This document shows positions 50,153 through 57,889 of a DNA stretch of 57,889 nt, piece by piece. How positions within the stretch are numbered: the first letter of the stretch is position 1; every line of letters begins with the position of its first letter. The stretch comes from a virus. The DNA lies in IMG/VR virus record IMGVR_UViG_3300047551_001006, positions 1 to 57,889 of that record; one strand, written 5' to 3'. A model generated the notes under the pieces. The model did no database searches, had not been told where the DNA came from, and saw nothing but the letters and a program-made list of their open reading frames with translations. A program made the translations under genes and the position numbers.

Positions 50153-51274
50153 ATGACGTTTAAGTTTTTCCCATTTGGGGCACCAACCACGAGTTCGTTC
50201 GCTATTTCGGTTGTCGGTACTACGGCAACCGCATCGACGGCTATCAATAGTGGTTCGGGATTCTTAACGGCGTCATTTGCATTAGGCGGATTTTCAGGAC
50301 CAACAGGTGTATCGGGACCAACTGGTGCAACGGGAGCAACAGGCCCAACTGGACCAACTGGTGTTTCTGGGTCAACTGGTGTATTGGGTGTATCGGGTTC
50401 TACTGGACCACAAACATCAGGATCAACAGGTCCAACAGGTCCAAGTGGTCCAAGTGGTATATCGGGGCCAACGGGTCCAACAGGTCCTACTGGAGCAACT
50501 GGTGTAATCGGTATTACTGGACCATCTGGTATTCGTGGTGCAACTGGTGCAACGGGAGCAACAGGTCCAACAGGTCCAACAGGTAGTATAAGTACGACCG
50601 CGGGCGCAATCGGTGTATCGGGTGTTACAGGACCAACAGGATCTTCGGGTCCGACTGGAGTACAAGGGTCCACAGGTCCAACTGGTGTCGGTCCAACGGG
50701 TGCAACAGGACCAACGGGGCCATCGGGTTCTACAGGTCCAACAGGTCCAGTAGGTCCAACGGGTGCAACTGGAGCAACAGGACCACAAGGTGCAACAGGA
50801 CCAAATACGTTCGGTATTTCAGGTCCAACAGGAGCAACGGGTGCAACTGGTGTCGTAGGAGCAACAGGTATACAAGGTGCACCAGGTCGTGCAGTATTTT
50901 TCGTAACAGGTTCATGTAACCAAACACATTCTGACGTTACGGTTCCGCATAGTGATATTGCACAAAGTCATACTAATATTACGGCCGCGCATACAGACAA
51001 TACCACCAATCCATCACACTCGGATATTGTCAGTACTACACCAGCATCACATACGGACAATTATACACCACACACCAATACTACAATCAACGCATCACAT
51101 AGTAATATTACAATAAACGCGTCACATTCTGATATTTCACATTCTAATATTACAATTAACGCAAGTCATACTGATAATACAACAAACTTCCACACAGACA
51201 ATTACACACCACACGGTAATAGTTATACCACCAATAATCATGGAAATTCATACGGCGGAGGTAATCCGTTCTAA
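50153..51274 (+). CDS. collagen-like protein with C-terminal HTD/HSN repeats
   Basis: A 373-residue protein with three parts: N-terminal module [16 protein letters not shown] (1-42), a collagen-like region to about residue 250, then from about 258 a region with about 14 His-X-Asn/Asp triplets (HSD, HTN, HTD, HGN), including [16 protein letters not shown]. It ends [13 protein letters not shown], as does the protein at 53688 (NNHGNSYQGGPSF). It links the two repeat classes in one chain and is the best hint that they belong to the same structure. Confidence 0.7.
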
Positions 51275-51286
51275 TCGGATATAGTT

Positions 51287-51949
51287 ATGGCTCATTCTAA
51301 TTTTTATATAGCCGCATCGCACACCAACGCAGCAGGGTCGCATACCAATAGTACCGCTGCGCACACGGATAATACTACTCCTGCGGCGCATACTAATATT
51401 GCACATCAAAATGCAACTATTCCTGCAGCACATACCGACAACACCACTTCGTTTAGTAACATAGCATTCAGCAACATAGCATTTTCCAATAGTTACACTC
51501 CACACACTAATATCGCACACAGTAACATCGCACATAGTGATGGTGGATTTACAAATACTACAATACCATTTAGTAATATCGCAAAAGCACATACAAATAT
51601 AGCGCATACCGATACACCGAAGTCACATACTGATATTGATTTTAGTAACATAGCATTCGCAAATAATTACACAAGTAATAATCACACAGATAATACTACA
51701 AATCCAGCACATACTGATATCGCACACACCAACAATAGCTCGGCACATACTGATAGTACAATTAACAATTCACACGCAGATAATACAACACTACATTCGA
51801 ATATTGCACATGCAGATTCACCGCATGTCGATTCTTACACTCCGGCACAGTGCTCACAGTGTCCTGGTGGTAATGCAGCAGAATGTGACGAATTCTGCGC
51901 TTGTTATCCAAACTGTGGATGTCAAGATAATATATGTGTAGGTACATAA
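51287..51949 (+). CDS. HTD/FSN repeat protein with Cys-rich C-terminus
   Basis: A 220-residue protein starting MAHSNFYIAASHTN, nearly the same as the start of the protein at 54922. About 28 Phe/His-X-Asn/Asp triplets (HTN, HTD, FSN, FTN, FAN, HAD, HVD) fill residues 2-184. The last 35 residues hold eight Cys in CSQCPGG, ECDEFCACYPNCGCQDN and IC, which may form disulphides or bind metal. No other domain is seen. Possibly the substrate of the radical SAM enzyme at 55911, by inference from repeat type and proximity. Confidence 0.65.
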   Translation: MAHSNFYIAASHTNAAGSHTNSTAAHTDNTTPAAHTNIAHQNATIPAAHTDNTTSFSNIAFSNIAFSNSYTPHTNIAHSNIAHSDGGFTNTTIPFSNIAKAHTNIAHTDTPKSHTDIDFSNIAFANNYTSNNHTDNTTNPAHTDIAHTNNSSAHTDSTINNSHADNTTLHSNIAHADSPHVDSYTPAQCSQCPGGNAAECDEFCACYPNCGCQDNICVGT

Positions 51950-51976
51950 TAAAATGTTTATAATAGGGAATAACTA

Positions 51977-52741
51977 ATGCCAGGTCCTACTCATACAAAC
52001 ATAGCACATAGTGATATAGGATTTAGTAACGTTTCTGCCGCGCATACTGACGTTACTATTAATTCTTCACATACGGATAATACACTTCCGCATGGTAATA
52101 TTGCATTTACTAATAGCACTATTCCCGCAGCACACACAGACAATACAACATTTACAGCACATACCAACACACCACACAGTAATATATCATTTGTTAACAG
52201 TACCACACCATTTAGTAATATTTCTTTTTCAAATAGTTACACACCACATAGTAATATTGGAGCATCGCATACAAATATTGCACACAGTAATACAGCATTT
52301 AGTAACGTAGGATTTAGTAATATCGCACAAGGACACACCAATATATCACATAGTAATATCAGTCATAGCAACATTTCTGCCGCACATACGGACAATACTA
52401 CTAACCTATCACATAATGATACGGGACATGTAGATTCTACAATCAACGCAAGTCACACGGACAATTATACAGGTCCATCGCATAGTGATAATACGACACC
52501 AGCATCGCATAGTGATATCGCATTCTCAAATATCACCATTAATGCATCACATGATGATATTACAATAAATGCAAGTCATACAGATATAGCAAAAGCACAT
52601 ACAGATACAACCATTAACGCATCACACACTAATATCGTCAGCACCACACCAGCGGCACATACAGATAACACTACATCATTTAGTAATAGTTATACTCCAC
52701 ACTCAAATGTTGCGGCAGCCCATAGTAACGCATTCCTATAA
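51977..52741 (+). CDS. HTD/HSN/FSN repeat protein
   Basis: A 254-residue protein made almost wholly of about 36 Phe/His-X-Asn/Asp triplets, starting MPGPTHTNIAHSDIGFSN and ending AAAHSNAFL. Units are five residues (HSNIG, FSNIA), seven (FSNSYTP, HTDIAKA) or nine ([18 protein letters not shown]). There is no hydrophobic core of a normal globular protein, no Cys, no Lys-rich part and no membrane segment. It is probably an extended or solenoid-like fibre. Confidence 0.65.
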   Translation: MPGPTHTNIAHSDIGFSNVSAAHTDVTINSSHTDNTLPHGNIAFTNSTIPAAHTDNTTFTAHTNTPHSNISFVNSTTPFSNISFSNSYTPHSNIGASHTNIAHSNTAFSNVGFSNIAQGHTNISHSNISHSNISAAHTDNTTNLSHNDTGHVDSTINASHTDNYTGPSHSDNTTPASHSDIAFSNITINASHDDITINASHTDIAKAHTDTTINASHTNIVSTTPAAHTDNTTSFSNSYTPHSNVAAAHSNAFL

Positions 52742-52750
52742 TACGAGAAT

Positions 52751-53614
52751 ATGACGCAATTTTTTCCACTTGGTACACCAACCACATCAAGCTTCTCACT
52801 CACCAGTAGTTTAGCGTTTGTCGCAACGTATGCGGTGAATGTAAATGTGTTAACCGCATCTTACGGACCAGGACCAACAGGACCAACAGGTGTTCGTGGA
52901 CCATCAGGACCAACAGGACCACAAGGACAAGCTGGTTCAGGTTCTACAGGTCCAACAGGTGCAACAGGACCAACAGGATTAACAAGTTCAGGTCCAACAG
53001 GACCAACTGGACCTGCGGGGACAATAGGTATAACAGGTATTACTGGTGCAACGGGTGTAACAGGTAGTACAGGTCCAACAGGACCAACTGGTATCACGGG
53101 TGTAATTGGTATTACGGGTATTAGTGGTGTAACAGGCATCGCATCATTCGCATCGGGTTCTACAGGACCAACTGGAGCAACTGGAGCTACTGGTGCAACG
53201 GGTGTGGTGGGTATTACTGGTGCAACAGGGGTAATCGGTATTACAGGACCAACAGGATTAACAAATCTTGTTGGTATTACAGGCCCAACAGGACCAGTAG
53301 GATTACCCACCACAGGTTCCACAGGTCCGTCAGGTCCACAAGGTGCAACGGGTGTAATAGGTGTTACTGGTATATCCGCAGCAGCTGCATCGGCAGGAAC
53401 GGGTGGAGTGGGAGGTACTACAGGAGTCCAAGGACCAACAGGACCACAGGGTTCTCGTGGAGTTGATGCAGAATGTCCGGCTGGGTTTGTTACCTGTACT
53501 GAAGGATCCCCTTCATCTGGGTCAAATTTCTATACTAATCCAAATAGTAGTATATATTCTGTGGTTTGTGCAGCAAGACCTGTAGGTTGTTTAGGAACAT
53601 TTACTTGTGTCTAA
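52751..53614 (+). CDS. short collagen-like fibre protein with Cys-containing tip
   Basis: A 287-residue protein. The N-terminal module [16 protein letters not shown] is shared with the other short collagens. Residues about 38-235 are Gly-X-Y rich, with some interruptions ([17 protein letters not shown]). The C-terminal 50 residues have five Cys ([25 protein letters not shown]) and form a small, probably disulphide-linked or metal-bound tip. It is the last gene of the operon that starts at 49406. Confidence 0.7.
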
Positions 53615-53670
53615 CGTCATTTTCTTGATTGTAGGTGTAAAAAATACTACTTATATGAAGGTAGACGTTA
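53612..53670. other. inverted repeat flanking a promoter-like octamer
   Basis: TAACGTC (53612-53618, overlapping the collagen stop) and GACGTTA (53664-53670), 45 bases apart, with TACTTATA between. No T run follows. It could be a stem or chance. Confidence 0.3.
53648..53655 (+). promoter_or_regulatory. late-promoter-like octamer, one mismatch (TACTTATA)
   Basis: Identical to the variant at 33854, 32 bases before the ATG at 53688; would drive the two largest HTD-repeat genes. Confidence 0.45.
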
Positions 53671-53687
53671 TGTGGAGATTTTAATAT

Positions 53688-54899
53688 ATGCCAAAGGCAC
53701 CTGGTAGTATTTGGGTTGATGGAGAAACCTTTAGATTTATTGATGCAACAGGAAACGAGTACTATTATACAGGTACTGCGGGTTCCAGTCCTGCGGGAGC
53801 AAAGGCGGGTTCAATCTGGGTAGACGGAAATGATTTCCATTATATTTCCGCTACCGGTGTTGACCGCACTATTGCATCAAGTGATTTGGGAGCGGCATCA
53901 GGAGCAAAGGTTGGATCGGCATGGGTGCAAACCACATTTTGGAATTGGATTTCTACCGCTGGTAATGTTCGTCGTGGTCATACAGACGTAACCGCAGCAC
54001 ATACGGACAATACCACCCCAGCATCCCACACAGATATCGCGTTCGTCAATACCACGATTAACGCAGCACATACAGACAACACGACGATAGCAGCACATAC
54101 AAACAACTATACTCCGCATACAAACACCACGATTAACGCAGCACATACTGATAATACCACCAACGCAAGTCACACAGATATCGCACACACCAACACCACG
54201 ATTAACGCAGCACATACCGATACCACAATCAACGCATCACATACCAACAACTATACTCCACACACTAACACAACGATTAACGCAGCGCATACAGACAACA
54301 CCACACCAGCTGCACATACCGATAATACGACTCCATTTAGTAATATAGCATTTAGTAATTCATACACACCAAATAGTCATACTAACAGCTATACTCCACA
54401 TAGTAATATCGGTCACACCAATATCGGTGCAGCACATACCGATAACACTACACCATTTAGTAATACAGCATTCGTCAATAGTTATACCGGAAATAATCAT
54501 ACCAACAATTACACGCCGCATAGTAATATCGGACATAGTAACATAGGATTTAGTAATATTGGATTCAGTAATATCGGATTCAGCAATATCGCAAAGGCAC
54601 ATACAGATAATACTACTAACGCAAGTCATACCAATATCGCACACAGTAATGTCGGGTTCAGTAACAGTTATACTGGATTTACCAATAGTTATACTCCATT
54701 TAGTAATGTTGGATTTAGTAATATTGGTGTAAGTCATACTAATATTGGACATAGTAATGTAGCACATAGTAATGTCGGTGCAAGTCATACCAATATTGGA
54801 CACAGTAATGTTGGGTTTAGTAATAGTTATACACCATTTGCTAATAGTTACACACCAAATAATCACGGTAACAGTTACCAAGGTGGTCCTTCGTTCTAA
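53688..54899 (+). CDS. HTD/FSN repeat protein with N-terminal WV repeats
   Basis: A 403-residue protein with tggagat before the start. Residues 5-95 hold three related units (SIWVDGETFRFIDATG, SIWVDGNDFHYISATG, SAWVQTTFWNWISTAG), a small beta module probably for attachment. From about residue 98 to 392 come about 44 triplets (HTD, HTN, HSN, FSN, FVN, FAN). It ends NNHGNSYQGGPSF, like the hybrid protein at 50153. It has a domain for anchoring and a long repeat stalk. Confidence 0.7.
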   Translation: MPKAPGSIWVDGETFRFIDATGNEYYYTGTAGSSPAGAKAGSIWVDGNDFHYISATGVDRTIASSDLGAASGAKVGSAWVQTTFWNWISTAGNVRRGHTDVTAAHTDNTTPASHTDIAFVNTTINAAHTDNTTIAAHTNNYTPHTNTTINAAHTDNTTNASHTDIAHTNTTINAAHTDTTINASHTNNYTPHTNTTINAAHTDNTTPAAHTDNTTPFSNIAFSNSYTPNSHTNSYTPHSNIGHTNIGAAHTDNTTPFSNTAFVNSYTGNNHTNNYTPHSNIGHSNIGFSNIGFSNIGFSNIAKAHTDNTTNASHTNIAHSNVGFSNSYTGFTNSYTPFSNVGFSNIGVSHTNIGHSNVAHSNVGASHTNIGHSNVGFSNSYTPFANSYTPNNHGNSYQGGPSF

Positions 54900-54921
54900 T
54901 TATGTTTAACGGATAAATAAT

Positions 54922-55845
54922 ATGTCGCATTCAAATTTTTACAATGCTGCATCACATACTAATGTGGCTACAAGTCATACTAATATTGGATTCAGTAATG
55001 TTGGATTCAGTAACAGCTATACTCCGTTTAGTAATGTCGGATTTAGTAATGTTGGATTCAGTAATAGTTACACCCCACATAGTAATGTAGCACATAGTAA
55101 TGTTGGGGCAAATCATACAAATATTGGTGCAAATCACACGAATATCGGATTTAGTAATGTCGGATTCAGTAATTCATACACACCAAATAGTCATACTAAC
55201 AACTATACCCCACATAGTAATATCGGTCACAGTAATATTGGGCATAGTAACATCGGATTTAGTAATATAGCATTTAGTAATATTGCAAAGGCACATACAG
55301 ATAACACCACAAATGCAAGTCACACCAATATCGCACATACTAATATTGGTGCAGCACATACAGATAGTACTACACCATTCAGTAATATAGCATTTAGTAA
55401 TATTGCAAAGGCGCATACTGATACCACTATCAACGCAAGTCATACAAATATTGCGCATAGTAATATTGGTGCGGCACACACGGATAATACTACCAATCCA
55501 TCACATACTGATAATACTACCAACGCATCACACACCGATATTGCAAAGGCACACACCGATACCACGATTAACGCTTCACATACTGACAATACCACCAACG
55601 CAAGTCATACAGATATTGCGTTCGTCAATACCACCATTAACGCCGCACATACGGATAATACCACTATCGCATCACACACCGATATTGCGAAGGCACATAC
55701 AGACAACACCACACCAGCCGCCCACACAGATAACACCACCCCAGCATCACATACCGACATCGCACATACTAACACTACGATTAACGCAGCCCATACGGAC
55801 AACACCACACCACATAGTGACCAACCAGTATTCGTTGGTCCATAA
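54922..55845 (+). CDS. HTD/FSN repeat protein next to radical SAM gene
   Basis: A 307-residue protein, nearly all repeat. It begins MSHSNFYNAASHTN. About 44-45 triplets follow; the first half is FSN/HSN/HTN-rich and the second half HTD-rich. All spacings between consecutive repeat aromatics/His that I counted are 5, 7 or 9 residues (HSNIG; FSNSYTP; HTDNTTNAS). It ends HSDQPVFVGP. It is directly upstream of the radical SAM promoter and is the most probable substrate by distance. Confidence 0.7.
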   Translation: MSHSNFYNAASHTNVATSHTNIGFSNVGFSNSYTPFSNVGFSNVGFSNSYTPHSNVAHSNVGANHTNIGANHTNIGFSNVGFSNSYTPNSHTNNYTPHSNIGHSNIGHSNIGFSNIAFSNIAKAHTDNTTNASHTNIAHTNIGAAHTDSTTPFSNIAFSNIAKAHTDTTINASHTNIAHSNIGAAHTDNTTNPSHTDNTTNASHTDIAKAHTDTTINASHTDNTTNASHTDIAFVNTTINAAHTDNTTIASHTDIAKAHTDNTTPAAHTDNTTPASHTDIAHTNTTINAAHTDNTTPHSDQPVFVGP

Positions 55846-55910: not shown

Positions 55911-57224
55911 ATGACTATTGAATTAGAACCAGTTGGAGTAGTATGTAATTTAAGTTGCCCGTATTGCTACGAACATCCTATGCGCGATGCGGGAAATTTT
56001 CGTCATAAAACATACTCTGTAGAGAAAATGTTAGAAGGTCTTGCCAAAGAGGGACATAACTTTACCTTATTTGGTGGTGAACCATTATTAACTGATATTG
56101 ACGATTTAGAAACTATTTTTAAGTGGGGTTATGAACGTTATGGAATGAATGGCGTTCAAACAAATGGTGTTTTAATCACCGACCGCCACATCGAAATGTT
56201 TAAGAAGTATAACGTTCACGTTGGAGTGTCCCTTGACGGACCCGATGAAATGAACGATACTCGTTGGGCTGGGTCATTAGAAAAGACCAGAGAAGCCACC
56301 CGTAAATCATTTGAAGCTATTAAAAAGTGTTTAGCTAATAAACTATCACTTGGATTAATTATTACCATTCATACAAAGAATGGATTACCAAAACATCGTG
56401 AACGTTTCAAGAATTGGATTAAAGAACTCCAATCGTGGGGTGTTGATGGAGCAAGACTTCATCCATTAGAAATTGACCATAGTGCAGTCGGTGAAACATT
56501 AGCCCTAACACCAGAACAAAATATTGAATTCTTACTTGATATGTGGGAATTTGAACTTAAAGAATTGAACGTTCCTGGTAAAAAGTCATTCCACTTTGAT
56601 ATTTTCCGTGATGTGGAAGATATGTTAAAAGCACAAGATGATAACGCTACGTGTACGTTCTTATCGTGTGACCCATATACTACACACGCGGTGCAAGGTA
56701 TTGACTCGCAAGGTAACAAAGCAAATTGCGGTCGTGGAAATAAGGAAGGTATTAACTGGATTAAGGCCGATGTAGACGGATTCGAACGTCAGATGGCTTT
56801 ATATAATACTCCACAGGAGCATGGTGGTTGTCAGGGATGTCGTTTCTTTATTATGTGTAAGTCGCACTGTCCTGGTACAGGTATTGAGATGGACTGGAGA
56901 AATCGTACTGATACTTGCATGAATTGGAAAGTAGCGTTTGGTATCTACGAAAAGTTGATGGTGGAAAAAGGTGAGACACCATTATCATTAAGTCCAGAAT
57001 TAAAGAAATATGAAGATATTTTAATGTATGGTTATAGTCGCGGTGTAGAACTTAGATTAAAACATATTAAGCAATATCTTGAAGGAAACTTCAATATAGA
57101 AGCATTTATTGACAGTTACCTTAAAAACCAAGCATTTGGATCACAAATACCACATGCAGACCATACTGATGAAACTGGACGTTACGCTATTGAGTATAAA
57201 GAGAAGTACGGATATTTACCTTAA
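55911..57224 (+). CDS. radical SAM/SPASM peptide maturase
   Basis: A 437-residue enzyme. Cys12-X3-Cys16-X2-Cys19 (CNLSCPYC) binds the SAM [4Fe-4S] cluster, and LFGGEPLL is the GGE SAM-contact motif. The C-terminal SPASM pattern is complete: Cys253...Gly268-X4-Cys273, then Cys307-X2-Cys310-X5-Cys316-X3-Cys320 and Cys336 (Cys248 as a further one), for two auxiliary clusters. SPASM enzymes of this type modify peptides or protein side chains. The last 26 residues carry HADHTDETGRY (His415 on), matching twice in the next small protein. With Phe/His-X-Asn/Asp repeat proteins upstream, a cross-linking maturase of fibres is my inference; sulfatase maturase is less likely as no sulfatase is present. 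Confidence 0.85.
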   Translation: MTIELEPVGVVCNLSCPYCYEHPMRDAGNFRHKTYSVEKMLEGLAKEGHNFTLFGGEPLLTDIDDLETIFKWGYERYGMNGVQTNGVLITDRHIEMFKKYNVHVGVSLDGPDEMNDTRWAGSLEKTREATRKSFEAIKKCLANKLSLGLIITIHTKNGLPKHRERFKNWIKELQSWGVDGARLHPLEIDHSAVGETLALTPEQNIEFLLDMWEFELKELNVPGKKSFHFDIFRDVEDMLKAQDDNATCTFLSCDPYTTHAVQGIDSQGNKANCGRGNKEGINWIKADVDGFERQMALYNTPQEHGGCQGCRFFIMCKSHCPGTGIEMDWRNRTDTCMNWKVAFGIYEKLMVEKGETPLSLSPELKKYEDILMYGYSRGVELRLKHIKQYLEGNFNIEAFIDSYLKNQAFGSQIPHADHTDETGRYAIEYKEKYGYLP

Positions 57225-57244
57225 CATTAAAGAGGATATGTAAA

Positions 57245-57616
57245 ATGATTGACGGATTACACGCAGACCATATAGACACAACTGGTGCCTACGGTCAAAA
57301 ATTCGCAGTAGTACAAGAACTACTCGAAACAGGAGTACTAAAAGAAATTCCAGAGGAATTCCGTGAAAAGGGTGCAGAAAGTGTACCAGTAGTAACTACT
57401 TCACAAACAGTAATTGGTGATGAATTTGATATGACCAACGGACATGCTGATCACGTTGACGAAACTGGTCGCTATGCACGTGCATATGAAGAACGATTCG
57501 GTGCAGGATCACTTGGTGAATCATCAAACTCACAACAAGAAGAACAAGCTGGTAATTCATGGAAGTCTTTCTTACAAAAGATTATCGCTGAAGAAAAGAG
57601 TAAGTTGAAGGTTTAA
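57245..57616 (+). CDS. small protein with two HADHxD motifs, radical SAM partner candidate
   Basis: A 123-residue acidic protein, 20 bases after the radical SAM stop (agaggatatgtaa). HADHIDTTGAYG lies at residues 6-17 and HADHVDETGRYARAYEERFG at 67-86. The second nearly repeats the tail of the radical SAM enzyme (HADHTDETGRYAIEYKEKYG). The middle is helical (FAVVQELLETGVLKEIPEEF) and the C-terminus basic-amphipathic (WKSFLQKIIAEEKSK). It might be a substrate (HAD, HID and HVD are also His-X-Asp), an adaptor, or a leader-like docking protein. No known family is recognised. Confidence 0.6.
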   Translation: MIDGLHADHIDTTGAYGQKFAVVQELLETGVLKEIPEEFREKGAESVPVVTTSQTVIGDEFDMTNGHADHVDETGRYARAYEERFGAGSLGESSNSQQEEQAGNSWKSFLQKIIAEEKSKLKV

Positions 57617-57635: not shown

Positions 57636-57889
57636 ATGCAAAGAATAAAGCACGTCCTGCCTGACTGGACTCGTGTGCAGTGGACTAGTATTGAAAATAG
57701 AAATAAGTACGAACCTATTATCAATTCTATTAATGCTGCATGGAAACAAATTGAACGTATGTCGGTGGTGCACGATATTAGACCATCCTCGTTGGATATC
57801 GTATCACCAAACGAACTCGTACAACTTACAGAAGAATATAAAAAGTACGGAGTACTTGTAGTTCCTCTTGCGAAAGAAGGTAAGTCATC
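57636..57889 (+). CDS. partial hypothetical protein, runs off window end
   Basis: The ATG at 57636 has aaggggtt before it. An open frame of 84 codons continues to the end: MQRIKHVLPDWTRVQWTSIE, then INAAWKQIERMSVVHDIRPS and YKKYGVLVVPLAKEGK. Trp- and charge-rich N-terminal part, mixed helical composition. Incomplete, so no family can be assigned. It is likely co-transcribed with the radical SAM genes. Confidence 0.5.
   Translation, partial: MQRIKHVLPDWTRVQWTSIENRNKYEPIINSINAAWKQIERMSVVHDIRPSSLDIVSPNELVQLTEEYKKYGVLVVPLAKEGKS

Follow-up and report, generated by a model that had tools for sequence, protein, structure and literature searches.

The window analysed here, i.e. the whole 57,889 nt stretch of the IMG/VR virus record IMGVR_UViG_3300047551_001006, harbours genes of a contractile-tailed phage, including those encoding a terminase, a portal, a major head protein, a tail sheath and a collagen-like tail fibre, and no DNA relatives of its positions 1-25000 were found among sequenced phages. 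Close to its end, where tail fibre genes surround several proteins with arrays of [H/F]-x-[N/D] triplets, lie the genes of a radical SAM (rSAM)/SPASM enzyme and of a small protein as well as the start of a third gene, as follows:

50153-51274, + strand: collagen-like protein of the tail-fibre type, with an [H/F]-x-[N/D] array at the C-terminus (Pfam Collagen, E 4.5e-25; PHROG tail fibre families)
51287-51949, + strand: array protein, 220 aa, with a Cys-rich C-terminus
51977-52741, + strand: array protein, 254 aa
53688-54899, + strand: array protein, 403 aa, with an N-terminal GSxWxxG domain
54922-55845, + strand: [H/F]-x-[N/D] array protein, 307 aa, with the C-terminal sequence HSDQPVFVGP
55911-57224, + strand: rSAM/SPASM enzyme, 437 aa (Pfam Radical_SAM, E 1e-15; Cys pattern; AF2 model; PDB fold matches)
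57153-57185, + strand: HADHTDETGRY, double-triplet box in the C-terminal tail of the enzyme (from the sequence)
57245-57616, + strand: small protein, 123 aa, with two boxes and a conserved C-terminal helix, WKxFLxxIIxEEKxKL
57260-57292, + strand: box 1 of the small protein, HADHIDTTGAY
57443-57475, + strand: box 2 of the small protein, HADHVDETGRY
57636-57889, + strand: DUF483-methyltransferase fusion gene, start only, cut by the window end (N-terminus as in L007:11757-13238)

The enzyme belongs to the radical SAM superfamily by its CxxxCxxC motif (C12, C16 and C19 being invariant), its Pfam match and its fold. The SPASM signature, CX9-15GX4C - CX2CX5CX3C - C, is present exactly, i.e. as C253-x14-G268-x4-C273, C307-x2-C310-x5-C316-x3-C320 and C336, all invariant among 74 homologous sequences. 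Its AF2 model (pLDDT 90.3) is confident except for the tail, in which the box scores lowest (residues 414-419 with pLDDT below 50, i.e. disordered), followed by a helix at residues 424-433; the C-terminus reads ...IPHADHTDETGRYAIEYKEKYGYLP. The closest solved folds are those of anSMEcpe (PDB 4k39), which was also the best PDB sequence-profile match, and ChlB (PDB 9gm3 and 9gmc; E 7.5e-14; 17-19% identity in the structural alignment). The nearest NCBIfam families include sulfatase maturases and the cyclophane maturases AmcB, DynA and YhhB; the scores, however, lie far below their cut-offs and those of every named cyclophane family, and the enzyme belongs to no named NCBIfam family. Sulfatase maturation was rejected as its role: despite the likeness to anSMEcpe, no sulfatase (PF00884) was found in the 12 phage records bearing the module (0/12), some of which are fragments.

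The preliminary description of this DNA had noticed the motif HADHxDxTGxY at the end of the enzyme and in the protein after it, and all three copies were confirmed, i.e. one at the rSAM C-terminus and two in the 123-aa protein. It had also named an observation that would speak against a link between motif and enzyme, namely that the motif is common in unrelated phage proteins without rSAM genes. When all of IMG/VR was scanned with an exact DNA pattern for HADHxDx[ST]GxY, 14 contigs were returned, 13 of which contain exactly three copies each, always adjoining this rSAM gene; the match on the remaining contig (L037) was set aside as chance, being a single copy outside the + strand ORFs of at least 80 aa and antisense to an ORF. 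The motif thus withstood the check named in advance. Across eight homologues of the small protein, HADHxD is invariant in both copies and the linkers diverge, with synonymous to nonsynonymous pair differences of 131:51 and 132:22 in the two boxes compared with 517:1251 in the remainder of the protein. Since the codons of the box vary and HADHxD is kept, it is the amino acids that are under selection, with strong purifying selection acting on each of the three copies; the codon variation and the collection scan together rule out that the box is a chance or repeat artefact. The similarity between the rSAM tail and box 2 extends past the 11-mer (shuffle p = 0.001), but none was found past the 11-mer for box 1 in the same comparison.

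The enzyme is part of a divergent rSAM/SPASM family, for which relatives were drawn from Thermus phages, IMG/VR and bacterial genomes of many phyla, resulting in 100 non-redundant members (45 from phages and 55 from bacteria); those of the Thermus phages phiLo, phiMa and Cumys are 44-53% identical to the enzyme of the window. At least two HxD/N triplets are present in 32 of the 36 phage enzyme tails of at least 8 aa, and all tails together, bacterial ones included, contain 179 such triplets, compared with 34 expected from shuffling. The double triplet H-[G/A]-D-H-x-[D/N] is found in 32/38 HxD-bearing tails, against an expectation of 0.4 when residues are shuffled and of 13.7 when the triplets are shuffled as units. 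The HADHTD of the window is this family box, of which the 11-mer is the local form. The 11-mer first described is specific to the neighbourhood of the rSAM gene, but the conserved unit is the double triplet H-[G/A]-D-H-x-D, the TGxY portion being confined to the phage clade of the window. The likeness of the motif to the HTDNTT repeats, also pointed out at that stage, proved right, both being made of H-x-D/N triplets. One phage clade (L019-L026) has arrays and no enzyme tail, and therefore the tail is not essential everywhere.

Beyond enzyme tails and arrays, the box H-[G/A]-D-H-x-[D/N] was encountered only in the small protein of the window's clade and in one chance frame, and other clades possess the enzyme tail without any small partner protein. 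The small protein family has no match in Pfam, PHROGs or NCBIfam. Its AF2 model (pLDDT 49.5) shows helices at residues 15-28, 76-85 and 103-120 and is mostly disordered; a structure search with this model was dropped as too weak. Judging from sequence similarity and this low-confidence model, the small protein is best regarded as a separate and largely disordered carrier on which the tail element of the enzyme is present in two further copies. The idea that a small peptide substrate has the motif as its core is not supported as worded, i.e. in the sense of a classical RiPP, since the main substrate candidates are long arrays in phage proteins of 200-500 aa. Compared with a RiPP precursor, which is a short leader-core peptide that undergoes cleavage and export, the small protein has two motif copies within 123 mostly disordered residues, and no protease or transporter was noticed among the listed downstream + strand ORFs.

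The arrays are closely linked to the enzyme. With phage members gathered by enzyme sequence alone and an array ORF defined by at least 10 triplets per 80 aa, such an ORF is present in the locus of 42/45 phage members, the remaining three being contig fragments; in contrast, 11 control loci with unrelated rSAMs peak at 7 triplets per 80 aa. Long arrays are found at 27 of the 55 bacterial members; among the remaining bacterial loci, several of those inspected encode, upstream, a large protein whose His-x-Asp clusters are smaller, and at some none was evident. When the search was reversed and based on the DNA pattern alone, 16 of the 19 clear His-x-Asp arrays among the matches listed were located on the same contig as this rSAM; the remaining three, all on partial contigs, are in array proteins of a type that is also encoded on an rSAM-bearing contig. 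A 205,857-bp phage contig (L242), which may be incomplete, carries a long HTDTA array and no detectable rSAM of this family. A DUF483 match was obtained in all 12 module-bearing records (12/12) at a permissive threshold, five of them above the Pfam cut-off, and the DUF483 gene is probably part of the system. It is located downstream of the rSAM gene (L004:11253-12191, L007:11757-13238 and L003:13479-14513) and is fused to a methyltransferase in some phages; the L007 gene matches DUF483 above the Pfam cut-off and includes a methyltransferase domain. Two copies of this rSAM gene are present in L166, L169, L174, L175 and L027, mostly adjacent but 2.5 kb apart in L027, and several two-copy phages have long tails of HGDHTD repeats.

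The arrays of the window (50930-55845) are found in five ORFs or parts of ORFs shortly before the rSAM gene; they and the enzyme tails are alike in kind, and the arrays follow strict pairing rules. All of their 123 His residues (123/123) have Asp or Asn at position +2, 43/51 Phe residues have Asn and never Asp there, and Tyr is essentially unused (1/28). In 156/161 cases, the distance from one triplet to the next is 5, 7 or 9 residues, i.e. the linkers are almost always of 2, 4 or 6 residues (an even-linker rule), and the arrays of this clade hardly ever contain adjacent triplets. Over all loci, Phe is paired with Asn or Asp at 144:44 and Tyr with Asp or Asn at 133:20 (Fisher p about 1e-33), and His is followed by Asp 1688 times and by Asn 167 times. 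The pairing thus depends on the residue type, as expected from a cross-link between the two residues. The arrays come in dialects (L142, L147, L169, L174, L057, L069, L109 and L173), with mostly Phe-x-Asn in some phages and Tyr-x-Asp mixed in in others; L147 has a Phe-x-Asn array, yet retains His-x-Asp in its enzyme tail.

Outside the triplets, a GSxWxxG repeat domain of ~100 aa (53688-53981 in the window; Cumys_13) precedes the arrays in most phage members and may be a recognition or virion-attachment domain. The N-terminal domain encoded by 53688-54899 is related to the phiMa and Cumys array protein (E 4e-5 and 1e-3). A tblastn search of phages with the array protein yielded no match, probably owing to the low-complexity filter, although the N-terminal domain did match Thermus phages. 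The product of 51287-51949 ends in a Cys-rich tail, CSQCPGGNAAECDEFCACYPNCGCQDNICVGT, and several relatives end similarly. In Actinobacteria and Chloroflexi, array proteins (L051, L063, L069 and L117) start with a Tat-like signal, e.g. FSRRALLRAG, which suggests that they are exported.

Several known systems resemble the one described here. According to the accessible part of a review (PMC11002830), three-residue cyclophane enzymes create a bond between an aromatic residue and the beta-carbon at position +2, the known pairs being Phe-Asn (XncB and OscB), Trp-Asn/Asp, Tyr-Asp (YxdB), His-Ala and His-Arg; His-x-Asp/Asn is absent from the cyclophanes named in that part. The triceptide enzymes it covers (XncB, OscB, MscB, YxdB, HaaB and YhhB) are alike in the rSAM/SPASM type, the aromatic-x-(Asn/Asp) i,i+2 motif and the Phe-Asn and Tyr-Asp pairs. 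As for a triceptide maturase, proteins with aromatic-x-(Asn/Asp) motifs are linked to the enzyme, but its scores against the named cyclophane maturase families are well below the NCBIfam cut-offs, none of which is reached. In contrast to the short precursor peptides of triceptides, moreover, tens of triplets occur here in phage tail-region proteins, His-Asp/Asn dominates, and the enzyme itself bears a substrate-like tail. ChlB, which a title referenced by PMC12636437 calls a multiple cyclophane synthase, differs in having been solved with a leader region of its own precursor. The His-Xaa-Ser system HxsABCD (PMC9062424) is similar in that a His-x-polar repeat protein is encoded with rSAM enzymes; unlike in that system, however, the +2 residue in the window arrays is Asp/Asn and never Ser, and HxsB is a weak match to one divergent family member. 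The His-Xaa-Ser system was rejected for this wrong third residue (N/D in 123/123 His).

The 'rSAM module' of Cumys and phiMa (PMC11437467) is the same module, with an rSAM of 44-45% identity, a DUF483 gene downstream and the array protein upstream, where a His-x-Asp array protein is encoded 9 bp from the rSAM gene in both phages. The accessible part of that account describes the Thermus phage module as rSAM, DUF483 and an unknown gene, suggests DNA modification and does not mention arrays or tail boxes. In the open-access literature, to which our search was directed, we found no description of phage cyclophanes or His-x-Asp arrays.

On balance, we judge it rather probable that the locus is a protein-modification module, in which the arrays are substrates of the rSAM enzyme, probably receiving aromatic-Asp/Asn cross-links, and the enzyme tail and small protein are substrate-like elements engaging the enzyme. 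We infer the following course: the rSAM/SPASM enzyme would act on the aromatic-x-Asp/Asn triplets of the neighbouring tail-region proteins and link the beta-carbon of the Asp/Asn at +2 to the aromatic side chain, which is that of His or Phe here and of Tyr in other phages, giving three-residue cyclophanes and thereby a chemically stiffened array, which the DUF483-methyltransferase may modify further. The HADHxD boxes on the rSAM tail and the 123-aa protein would keep sequences of the substrate type close to the enzyme. In cis, the flexible tail box may engage the active site, being either self-modified or a pseudosubstrate displaced by the array; the small protein, in which a helix comes after each of the two boxes, may be the counterpart in trans, which would help to hold enzyme and substrate together or be co-modified.

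Three roles come into consideration for the box: it may make the tail a pseudosubstrate or a target of self-modification, act as a docking tag, or serve as a helper joining array and enzyme. Docking tag and self-modified segment had both been put forward in the preliminary description, and both still fit the sequence, which does not separate them. We favour direct engagement of the active site, as the box conforms to the triplet rule and is flexible, and most phage clades have retained it. A serious but rather unlikely alternative is that the boxes serve only to dock enzyme, small protein and array onto each other and undergo no chemistry themselves, the arrays possibly still being substrates: the box is a short, tethered and disordered segment that has been conserved in the small protein while the linkers drift, but it follows the H-x-D rule of the arrays in every tail-bearing clade, which is beyond the needs of a binding tag. 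Somewhat less likely still, the enzyme-substrate relation may hold with another rSAM chemistry, i.e. epimerization, beta-hydroxylation or dehydrogenation of His/Asp, or another cross-link, given that SPASM enzymes catalyse many reactions, that the nearest folds include a sulfatase maturase and that partners such as the DUF483-methyltransferase suggest additional tailoring; nevertheless, the pairing is strictly i,i+2 and Phe-Asn and Tyr-Asp are preferred, which points to a reaction involving both residues.

Two further alternatives take the arrays out of the reach of the enzyme. His and Asp bind metals, and HxH motifs bind iron in phage tail tips, so the HxD/N arrays could be metal-binding or structural repeats requiring no modification, with the rSAM acting on something else nearby. 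We regard this as improbable, as the Phe-x-Asn dialects (L142, L147 and the window) cannot bind metal via Phe, yet adjoin the same enzyme in the same position. The least credible alternative is the DNA modification proposed for the Thermus phage version in the accessible part of PMC11437467, where some cyanobacterial homologues are reported from deazapurine DNA-modification contexts; the methyltransferase partner would fit such a role, but the array gene 9 bp upstream in phiMa and Cumys, the near-universal linkage to arrays in phages and the typical action of SPASM enzymes on peptides make it highly improbable.

Our data suggest an undescribed system in which an enzyme chemically stitches array proteins. 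As a tentative proposal, to which we give slightly less than an even chance, phages and many bacteria would make proteins with tens of tandem three-residue cyclophanes (His-x-Asp/Asn, Phe-x-Asn and Tyr-x-Asp), i.e. a fibre material stapled by covalent bonds and situated at or close to the virion. It would be matured by an rSAM/SPASM enzyme with a built-in, substrate-like HGDHxD tail box, alongside which a dedicated two-box helper protein would act in trans in the clade of the window. Cross-linking by rSAM enzymes is known from small peptides, and here a motif of this type forms long arrays within phage proteins of the tail region; a single enzyme family is linked to such arrays across phages and many bacterial phyla. 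Thermus phages with this module are cultured, and the system is directly testable there. If true, a maturase whose flexible tail bears the substrate motif would exemplify an unusual control of a repeated modification, and, if the chemistry holds, the arrays would represent a new covalent protein material and a new viral way to harden or diversify surface proteins.
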